Origin: Thermoguttaceae bacterium
GTDB lineage: Bacteria > Planctomycetota > Planctomycetia > Pirellulales > Thermoguttaceae
DNA length: 64,000 nucleotides
Assembly (NCBI GenBank): GCA_017559825.1
Contig: JAFYQR010000142.1
Location: 1 to 64,000, forward strand
Direction of reading: 5' to 3'
Shown here piece by piece: positions 21,661 through 28,080 of this stretch (position 1 is the stretch's first letter; each line of letters begins with the position of its first letter). A program made the position numbers and the translations under genes. The notes under the pieces are model-generated. The model made no database searches and was not told the DNA's origin. It was given only the letters and a program-made list of their open reading frames with translations.

Positions 21661-22014
21661 ATTCCGACTCCTAAAACGCTCGGTTGCGGTCGAACGACTC
21701 GCCGACGGAAAAAATAGCGTCGTTTGCGAAAAAAATCGTCCTTATTTATGATAATCGCTTTGCCGTCAAATTTCAAGACGCGTCGCTTTTAATTTTTCGA
21801 ACTTTTTCGCTCGTCGCGCTAGAAATTTTTAGTTTTTCCGAATAAAGAGATTTTGCCGACCGGCGCGTCGTCGGCGAGCGGGCGCGAAAACGCGGCAAAT
21901 TTTTTGCGTCGGCGACTCGGCGCCTTTCGACGTCGTATATTCGCTCGGGACGAAAGGCGTCTCGGCGGTCGAGCGGGAAATTTTTCGTCGACGACAAACA
22001 ACGGAGAAGCGGCG
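21661..22014. other. Divergent intergenic region
   Basis: Separates the minus-strand TPR gene from the plus-strand small membrane protein gene. AT-rich sequence at 21715-21850 and a TATATT at about 21936-21941 could be promoter parts. I see no gene. Confidence 0.45.
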
Positions 22015-22284
22015 ATGACGAAGAGAGAGCGCGTGGCGTTCGTCGGGTTTTTATTGTTGGCGTTCGGCGTCGAAATGGTCGTCGTGCGGCAGGCGGTGTT
22101 GCGCGACGGCGTGGCGGCGGTCGTCGTGAAAAAATGGGGAGACGACGGCGTCGTTTCGGCGTTGGCGAGCGCGTCGGGGCGGCGAATCGCGCTGCCCGTG
22201 CCGAGCGCGGTCGGGCATTGCGTCGCGACGAGCGGCTTCGTGCTGATTCTTTGTTGTTATATTCTGTTGAAACCGGACGAGTGA
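22015..22284 (+). CDS. Small two-helix membrane protein
   Basis: An 89-residue protein with hydrophobic helices at about residues 8-28 (AFVGFLLLAFGVEMVVVRQAVL) and 65-85 (VGHCVATSGFVLILCCYILL), joined by a 35-residue polar loop. The ATG at 22015 has GGAG about 11 bases upstream. Longer in-frame extensions to 21853 enter sequence that does not look coding. I do not recognise the family. The gene precedes an HtrA-type protease by about 380 bases, a gap too large to suggest obligate cotranscription. Confidence 0.65.
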   Translation: MTKRERVAFVGFLLLAFGVEMVVVRQAVLRDGVAAVVVKKWGDDGVVSALASASGRRIALPVPSAVGHCVATSGFVLILCCYILLKPDE

Positions 22285-25482: not shown

Positions 25483-26811
25483 ATGAGCGGCGATATGCGG
25501 TTTTATCTTGGGATCGCTTGCGTTTTGTTTTTGGCGGGCGCGGCGATTTTTCTTTGGGACGCGTTTGGACGAATGCGGACGCGACGTTTGATCGCGTTTT
25601 TGCCGACGTCGAAGGCGAAGGGCGTTTTCATCGGTTTGGTTGAGTTGAGCGGAACGGCGGAATGCGAACGCGGCGAGGGAACGGTCGCGCCTATGTCCGG
25701 TCGCTCCTGCGTTTACGTTAAGACGAAAATCGAGGAAAAAAGGATTGAAACGCGAACGACGAAAAACTCCGACGGCGAAAGCGTAACGAAAACGGAGGCC
25801 GTTTGGAAGACGCTGGCCGAAAACGAAAGCCGACCGCTCTTTTACTTGCGCGACGAAACCGGGGCGGTGCGCGTCGACCCCAAGGACGCCGAAATCGTCG
25901 CGGAAAAGTTTGTCGAAGAAACGCTCGACCGTTCGGCGCCGGAGTATTTCAAGTGGGCGGACGGACGTTCCGAACTTCCGAATTCTTGCGGGATACGTCG
26001 TTTTACCGAAGTCGGCGTCCCGTTGGGTTCCGCCCTTTACGTTTTGGGAAAAGCGCGGATTCGCAAGGACGTCGTCGCCGCCGAAATTGCGAAAGACGAG
26101 ACGGAGCCGACCTTTTTGATCGTCGCCGGGAACGAGGAAAAGGCGCGCAAAGGGGCGAATTACGAGGAGAAACTGTCGCTTGCTCTCGCGTTGTTCTTCG
26201 CCGTCGGGTTCGGCGCTTGCCTTCCGGGCGTTTGGGGCGCGGAACGAAGGGCGATCGGGTTCGGCGCGCTTGGGGGGGGCGGCGTTTGCGTCGCGCTTTG
26301 GGCGGCCCGCGCTTTGCTCTCTTACGTCAACTCGTTCGTTGAGTTTCGATGGTTTGTCGATCGCGCTAAGTCTAATATCGACGTAGAGTTAAAACGTCGC
26401 GCCGACTTGCTTCCAGCGTTGGCCGAGGCGACGCGAGCGGCGGGCGAACACGAGAAGAACGTTCAAGAAACGTTGGCGGCGCTGCGTAGTCAAGAGACGA
26501 TTTTGCGGGTCGACGGCGCTCCGAACGGCGGCGCGATCGCGACGGCTCCGCGTTTGCTTGCGCTCGTCGAGGGCGTTCCGGAACTTGGCGCGGATAAAAA
26601 CTTTGCGAAGTTGCGTCAAGGCGTCGTCGACGCGGAAGATCGGATCGCGTTGGCGCGGGAGTATTATAATAATATCGCGGAGAATTACGAGACGCGGCGT
26701 AAGACGTTCCCGCATTCGCTCGTCGCGGCGCTTTGGCGTTTGCCGGAGGCGAAGTTTTTCGAAGCGGAAGGTTTCGAAGCGAAAACGGTCGACGTCGATT
26801 TGGAAGCGTAA
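25483..26811 (+). CDS. GIDE-LemA membrane protein, copy 1
   Basis: A 442-residue membrane protein with a fused architecture. An N-terminal helix anchors it (RFYLGIACVLFLAGAAIFLW). A GIDE domain follows, of the kind found in the eukaryotic mitochondrial E3 ligase MULAN (TSKAKGVFIGLVELSGTAE, MSGRSCVYVKTKIEEKR, FYLRDETGAVRVDPKDAEI, GVPLGSALYVLGKARI). Two more hydrophobic helices (LALALFFAVGFGACLPG; GALGGGGVCVALWAARALL) lead to a LemA-type coiled domain (KSNIDVELKRRADLLPALAEA, ALAREYYNNIAENYETRRKTFP). No RING domain is present, so ubiquitin-ligase activity is not implied. The GTG/TTG extension upstream is rejected in favour of the ATG at 25483. A paralogue follows 63 bases later. Confidence 0.85.
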   Translation: MSGDMRFYLGIACVLFLAGAAIFLWDAFGRMRTRRLIAFLPTSKAKGVFIGLVELSGTAECERGEGTVAPMSGRSCVYVKTKIEEKRIETRTTKNSDGESVTKTEAVWKTLAENESRPLFYLRDETGAVRVDPKDAEIVAEKFVEETLDRSAPEYFKWADGRSELPNSCGIRRFTEVGVPLGSALYVLGKARIRKDVVAAEIAKDETEPTFLIVAGNEEKARKGANYEEKLSLALALFFAVGFGACLPGVWGAERRAIGFGALGGGGVCVALWAARALLSYVNSFVEFRWFVDRAKSNIDVELKRRADLLPALAEATRAAGEHEKNVQETLAALRSQETILRVDGAPNGGAIATAPRLLALVEGVPELGADKNFAKLRQGVVDAEDRIALAREYYNNIAENYETRRKTFPHSLVAALWRLPEAKFFEAEGFEAKTVDVDLEA

Positions 26812-26874
26812 ACTCGGCGAAAACGACGGTTGCGACGCGGTTCGCTTAATGGGATTGAGAAAGAGAAACGCGAT

Positions 26875-28080
26875 ATGGCGGAGACCGCGTTTTTTGGCGC
26901 GACGGCGCTTGTGGGATTCGCGCTTGCCGTTCGGTTTTTGGCAAAATCGTTTAAAACGTTGCGAGTGCAACGGTTAATCGAGAACACGCCGACGGTGAAA
27001 GCGAAAAGCGTTTTTATCGGAACGGTCGAGTTGCGCGGAACGGCGACGCTGGAAAACGCTCGACCGTTGACCGCTTCAATTTCAGGTTTGCCTTGCGTTT
27101 ACGTTCGAAACGAACTCGAAAAATCGAACGGCGTCGAGTGGAAAACGGTCGCGCGCCCTGCGAAACGCTTGGCTTATTGGCGTCTGCGCGACGAAACCGG
27201 CTCCGTTCGCGTCGTTACGCGAGGCGCCGAGATTCGACCGCGCTTGTTGGGCGAGCGATATTTGACGCCGGTTCAGCGCGTTCGCGAATACGGTATTCCT
27301 TTGGGTAGCGAGGTTTACGTCTTTGGTAAAGCGCGGATTCAAGCCGACGCGGTCGCGCCGGAAATCGCCGCCGACGCGACGCAATTTTTGTTGATTTCGA
27401 CCGCCGACGCGGAGTGCGTCGTTGAGGAAAAAGCGGAGGAAACGACGACGCGTAGTATGCTTGGACTGTTAGGTTGCGAAATTTTAAGCGTGAGCGTCGT
27501 TTTTTTAATCGCGCCGTCGTCGTTCTTATTAGGCGTTTTGGGCGGCGCGGCGTTGGGAATCTCTTTATATTGTTTCGCCTTTGAGACGGCTTTCGCCGTT
27601 TCCGTCGCGAATTCGTTGAGCGATTTGAGACGTCGCGTTTGTCAAGCTAAGTCGAACGCCGATATTGAGTTAACGCGGCGAAGCGATTTGTTTTTGGCGT
27701 TGACGTCCGCGGCGCAAGGCTGGACGCGGCAAGACCGCGCCGTCGAGGAAGCGTTGGCGACGTTGCGTTTGCAAGCCGAGCTCGAACGTCCGACCGTTTC
27801 GTTTGACGGCGGCGCGCGACCTTGGACGTCGACGTTGCGCGAGCTTGTCGAAGAAACTCCGGAACTTGCTGAAAACGAAGCGTTTGCGTATTTGCAAAAG
27901 AGCGTCGCCGACGCGGAGGAACGAATCGCGGCCTCGCGCGCCTATTACAACGCCGTCGCAAAATTGTACGAGGCGCGGCGTCGCGCTTGGTCGTCCCTTG
28001 CGTTTTTATTGCGATTTGAAGAAGCGCGCTTTTTTAAGACGAGCGTTTTTGCGGCGTCGTCCAACAAAATTAAGGTGTAA
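26875..28080 (+). CDS. GIDE-LemA membrane protein, copy 2
   Basis: A 401-residue paralogue of the gene upstream, with the same order. A helix (FFGATALVGFALAVRFLA) precedes the GIDE domain (TVKAKSVFIGTVELRGTAT, ISGLPCVYVRNELEK, YWRLRDETGSVRVVTRGAEI, GIPLGSEVYVFGKARI). A hydrophobic hairpin (CEILSVSVVFLIAPSSFLLGVLGGAALGISLYCF) and the LemA-type region (KSNADIELTRRSDLFLALTSA, ASRAYYNAVAKLYEARRRAW) follow. The two copies are clearly homologous but well diverged in sequence, so the duplication is old. The function is unknown; LemA-domain proteins are inner-membrane scaffolds in several bacteria. The ATG at 26875 is preferred over an upstream TTG. Confidence 0.85.
   Translation: MAETAFFGATALVGFALAVRFLAKSFKTLRVQRLIENTPTVKAKSVFIGTVELRGTATLENARPLTASISGLPCVYVRNELEKSNGVEWKTVARPAKRLAYWRLRDETGSVRVVTRGAEIRPRLLGERYLTPVQRVREYGIPLGSEVYVFGKARIQADAVAPEIAADATQFLLISTADAECVVEEKAEETTTRSMLGLLGCEILSVSVVFLIAPSSFLLGVLGGAALGISLYCFAFETAFAVSVANSLSDLRRRVCQAKSNADIELTRRSDLFLALTSAAQGWTRQDRAVEEALATLRLQAELERPTVSFDGGARPWTSTLRELVEETPELAENEAFAYLQKSVADAEERIAASRAYYNAVAKLYEARRRAWSSLAFLLRFEEARFFKTSVFAASSNKIKV

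Follow-up and report, generated by a model that had tools for sequence, protein, structure and literature searches.

What do bacterial proteins do that join a GIDE domain to a LemA domain in one chain, and why should two genes for such proteins stand side by side? LemA proteins are widespread, and GIDE/BAM domains occur in all domains of life. In a window of 64,000 nucleotides from a Thermoguttaceae bacterium, the whole stretch of DNA analysed here, two adjacent genes, A and C, bring the two domains together. The known relatives give a partial guide to function. MamQ is the sole LemA protein tied to a process; it is proposed to be a membrane hub that, ahead of invagination, organizes other proteins within the cytoplasmic membrane (PMC4902198). 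What the BAM domain did in its ancestral form is a question left open in PMC4457424. No description of the GIDE-LemA fusion was found in the literature that we searched. The fusion is important because a single chain with GIDE and LemA, often paired and also fused with TerB or a propeller domain, offers clues to topology and partners that are absent from stand-alone copies. The fusion family also names concrete proteins for expression.

The initial annotation had read each of the two genes as a GIDE domain, membrane helices and a LemA domain in one chain, a reading that profile searches bear out (Table 1). Gene A exceeds both Pfam cut-offs, with 55.8 bits for GIDE over residues 91-242 (cut-off 23.6) and 103.9 bits for LemA over residues 296-439 (cut-off 26.2); its LemA domain also has a profile match to the crystal structure 2etd (E 3e-26). 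Gene C reaches 59.3 bits for LemA (cut-off 26.2) and 21.4 bits for GIDE (E 1.9e-4), slightly under the cut-off of 23.6. The alignment of A with C spans the entire length of the proteins (36% identity, E 2e-67). The homology of the weakly matching GIDE half of C is thereby genuine: C carries a diverged GIDE copy. Hydropathy predicts three membrane helices in each protein. The close spacing that had been pointed out is real, as the two genes lie on the same strand with an intergenic gap of 63 bases. The strong divergence claimed for the copies, by comparison, is true of C but not of a further paralogue, B, which is found in sister genomes rather than in the window and is 53-57% identical to A.

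Table 1. Positions in the window of genes A and C and of their predicted parts
Feature	Coordinates	Strand	Basis
Gene A, GIDE-LemA fusion protein, 442 aa + stop	25483..26811	+	Pfam GIDE and LemA
Gene A membrane helix 1, residues 7-25	25501..25557	+	Hydropathy 2.29; K+R 1 before, 4 after
Gene A GIDE/BAM domain, about residues 42-222, beta-rich, predicted cytoplasmic	25606..26148	+	Pfam, AlphaFold2 model
Gene A membrane hairpin, helices 2 and 3, residues 232-250 and 257-275	26176..26307	+	Hydropathy, charge bias
Gene A LemA helical domain, residues 296-439, predicted cytoplasmic	26368..26799	+	Pfam; AlphaFold2 model
Gene C, diverged GIDE-LemA paralogue, 401 aa + stop	26875..28080	+	LemA match, homology to A
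Gene C membrane helix 1	26887..26943	+	Hydropathy 1.88; K+R 0 before, 4 after
Gene C shortened GIDE-like domain, without two segments of A	26989..27414	+	Alignment
Gene C membrane hairpin, helices 2 and 3	27457..27579	+	Hydropathy, charge bias
Gene C LemA domain, residues 260-392	27652..28050	+	Pfam; fold match to 2etd

How do these proteins compare with the families from which their parts come? With the LemA family (PF04011; Thermotoga maritima TM0961, PDB 2ETD; MamQ), A and C share the helical domain, both by profile and by fold, and as in LemA and MamQ a membrane helix directly precedes that domain. They differ from the family in an additional N-terminal GIDE domain and two additional membrane helices; a typical LemA protein has a single N-terminal anchor, a trait that the Pfam model does not require. 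Against the NCBIfam equivalog model for MamQ, A and C score 57.3 and 35.7 bits, under the cut-off of 250. The LemA domains of the fused proteins, those of A and C among them, are set apart from stand-alone LemA by a single separating branch (support 100/98), in a tree that omits fused copies at contig edges or with frameshifts, a split locus and the longest branches. On the other side of the chain, A and C have in common with MAPL/MULAN/MUL1 and the BAM/GIDE family (PF12483) a GIDE domain lying between two membrane helices, but LemA stands where RING would be.

AlphaFold2, given 12 sequences per model, predicted A and C with modest confidence (mean pLDDT 60.6 and 66.8), best in the beta-rich core of the GIDE domain. 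The LemA parts of both models match the crystal structure 2etd with probability 1.00 and TM-scores by target of 0.74 and 0.67. The fold search with GIDE returned no significant relative among solved structures, the immunoglobulin-like matches having E 0.009 or worse, and the GIDE alignment contains no conserved stretches usable for a degenerate-pattern search.

The same genome also has a stand-alone lemA gene, paired at another locus (G000 contig 33) with a gene for an M48 (HtpX-like) protease. A LemA domain and a membrane anchor are common to this pair and to A and C; unlike them, the pair has no GIDE, and the protease replaces the second LemA. At L065:4177-6984 the stand-alone lemA is directly followed by the protease gene, the product of which ends in a TerB match of 18.8 bits, below the cut-off.

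On which side of the membrane do the domains lie? According to the positive-inside rule, positive charge marks the cytoplasmic side. In most of about 20 homologues, lysines and arginines number about 0 before and 4-5 after helix 1, about 3 before and 0 after helix 2, and about 0 before and 3 after helix 3. The charges at the hairpin of gene A itself are less clear-cut (4 before and 2 after helix 2, 2 on either side of helix 3). Domains fused to homologues agree with the topology that the charges suggest. A lactonase-type beta-propeller lies behind a signal-peptide-like start, ahead of helix 1, in L135 and L141 (by Pfam) and in L140 (by eye); in L136 a propeller in front of GIDE-LemA was assumed from length and layout. 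At the other end, TerB follows LemA in L151 and L158, at 52.5 and 27.0 bits (cut-off 24.4); a third protein of the same double-module type, described below, has a weak TerB match after LemA. Charge bias, the positive-inside rule and these partner domains together point to GIDE and LemA domains in the cytoplasm and an N-terminus outside the membrane, as is also predicted for gene A. Against the cytoplasmic reading, the soluble domain of LemA has been predicted to be extracytoplasmic, as reported in PMC3905215. Human MAPL has its BAM domain in the intermembrane space (PMC4457424); if we have the bacterial orientation right, it is the opposite one.

The history of the pair can be followed at one site. 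The fusion-bearing clade consists of ruminant-hindgut Thermoguttaceae; the closest named relatives are Thermoguttaceae genomes assembled from metagenomes of the rectum and colon of ruminants. Within the genus, seven genomes share a syntenic site with the order ZnuA-TPR-small ORF-HtrA-TatD-[GIDE-LemA]-MtaB-RpoD-DnaG. Six of the seven carry two closely spaced fusion copies, A plus either B or C, separated by about 50-75 bases. The order is A-C in the window genome, C-A in G003, and B-A in G009 (over two contigs), G015, G017 and G019; G010 has A alone. A, B and C form one clade each and are jointly monophyletic (support 100/100), which places the duplications inside this clade, before the sampled species split. 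Comparisons of orthologues give dN/dS values of 0.18-0.31 (A and B) and 0.38 (C); by these values, which indicate purifying selection, all three look like functional genes.

What might such a pair do? Our preferred reading, put forward tentatively and at rather less than even confidence, is that A and C are subunits of one cytoplasm-facing LemA-type scaffold in the inner membrane, with a tendency to form unlike pairs. Each chain would start outside and cross the membrane, bringing the GIDE beta-domain into the cytoplasm beside the membrane; a membrane hairpin would come next, and then the C-terminal helical bundle of LemA, again in the cytoplasm. By analogy with MamQ, this bundle would be the part that assembles and recruits, and GIDE may serve as a membrane-proximal accessory binding module, not as an enzyme. 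A would be the conserved core, which can occur alone, and the diverged B or C would be its partner in a physical complex of unlike subunits. The proposal of the initial annotation that the two genes encode interacting partners survives in part. The presence of two close copies in nearly all of the clade speaks for it; the variable identity and order of the partner and the solitary A of G010 speak against it. An obligate pair is excluded by G010 together with the single copy in most fusion-bearing planctomycetes.

The same facts could be turned to a simpler account, in which a lineage-specific duplication left relaxed copies: A would work alone or as a homo-oligomer, with B and C drifting spares that have no dedicated partnership. 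The retention of A alone in G010, the shifting identity and order of the copies and the one copy in most other families all suit this account, as do the faster evolution of gene C, its eroded GIDE half and the early end of the G003 copy at its C-terminus. Yet C remains under purifying selection, B and C are each old and have been retained across species, and a second LemA module is paired with the fusion elsewhere too. We consider relaxed copies a distinct possibility but doubt that they are the explanation.

How far, then, do the fusion and the pairing extend beyond this genus? A phylum-wide sample of 294 genomes yielded GIDE in 27; the counts were 24 of 398 genomes for the class and 21 of 119 for the family. 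In most of these GIDE-bearing genomes the match runs on into LemA in a single reading frame. The fusion is thus a recurrent planctomycete architecture that occurs in many families. It is not unique to the window genome. The family is real and under-described, and is built from known domains. Among the plasmid records listed, matches are confined to the LemA part. The proposed survey of neighbourhoods in other planctomycetes gave a mixed answer on pairing. In the flanking sequence covered, most other fusion-bearing genomes have just one copy; pairing is thus common without being a requirement. It recurs in other guises. A stand-alone LemA gene lies directly upstream of the fusion in all three genomes of family f32 and in all three of genus g355 in family f112, and single chains of about 780-1036 aa with the layout GIDE-x-GIDE-LemA (two GIDE matches and one LemA match) occur in seven genomes of families f16, f111 and f113. 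For the stretch that separates the two GIDE domains, alignment to a hairpin-LemA profile has a probability of 92%; the GIDE profile gives 0.1%, and none of 30 column-shuffled controls exceeds 1.4%. These double-module chains therefore consist of two successive GIDE-LemA modules, and it is the LemA of the first that is degenerate.

It is conceivable, though unlikely, that GIDE-LemA as a whole is a planctomycete scaffold family of two unlike modules, one canonical and one degenerate, brought together by alternative routes: tandem genes, a stand-alone LemA partner, or a single chain whose modules are predicted to face opposite ways. An odd number of helices (three) per module would place the two modules of a double-module chain on opposite sides of the membrane. 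This arrangement, predicted from hydropathy, fits the N-terminal charges of L151 and L158 and the extra N-terminal helix of L152 and L155. With the modules on opposite sides, such chains cannot be taken directly as a model for A and C together.

The fused TerB domains raise a further idea, that of a LemA-type complex that responds to stress or metals and is linked with the TerB system, in which the LemA bundle would pass the state of the membrane to TerB-like modules in the cytoplasm. Besides the two double-module proteins with TerB fused behind LemA, and a third with a weak match there, we note the weak match that ends the M48 protease beside the stand-alone lemA of this genome. But by Pfam neither A nor C contains TerB, and the matches of the M48 protease and of L144 are under the cut-off; we think this idea improbable.

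Conserved neighbours might betray a pathway. When all open reading frames around 20 loci were clustered, no conserved pathway neighbour emerged: the clusters comprised only the fusion itself, stand-alone LemA (f32), shadow reading frames and clusters restricted to a few families. The initial annotation had tentatively linked the pair to the envelope-stress protease encoded upstream. An HtrA partnership had some appeal, for HtrA lies two genes upstream of the fusion pair, in the presence of peroxide Omi/HtrA2 cleaves human MAPL in its BAM domain (PMC4457424), and MamQ shares its process with MamE, which has protease activity. Synteny, distribution and predicted topology all tell against it. The HtrA-TatD-MtaB block persists in sister species that have no fusion, with nothing or one gene between HtrA-TatD and MtaB, and an HtrA gene is absent from the neighbourhood of the fusion at 20 loci outside the genus. 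HtrA, moreover, has a signal-peptide-like start and is predicted to be periplasmic, whereas GIDE and LemA are predicted to be cytoplasmic. We reject the partnership as very improbable.

That these proteins are bacterial relatives of the MULAN/MAPL membrane E3 ligase and modify other proteins can be dismissed as barely credible: the GIDE domain is homologous to that of MULAN, but neither A nor C has a RING or other catalytic domain (Pfam), the C-terminus is LemA, and the prokaryotic BAM proteins examined in PMC4457424 also lack RING, so there is no evidence for a ubiquitin ligase despite the Pfam label of GIDE, 'E3 ubiquitin ligase'.

Some loci depart from the common layout. L139 and L148 encode GIDE without LemA and, after the membrane helix, have long repeat or propeller-like C-terminal regions. 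At L117:3-1691 a GIDE-LemA frame stops just inside LemA and gives way to sequence resembling cytochrome c peroxidase (named by eye); this is either a gene chimera or an assembly join. In sister species (L087, L089-L094, L096, L097) the place of the fusion genes between TatD and MtaB is taken by a conserved gene for a protein of about 345 aa that resembles a sugar isomerase, also named by eye. In the window, the small open reading frame between the TPR protein and HtrA (21853-22284) has hydrophobic segments and no Pfam match; it is 73-85% identical in fusion-bearing sister genomes where the stretch is present.
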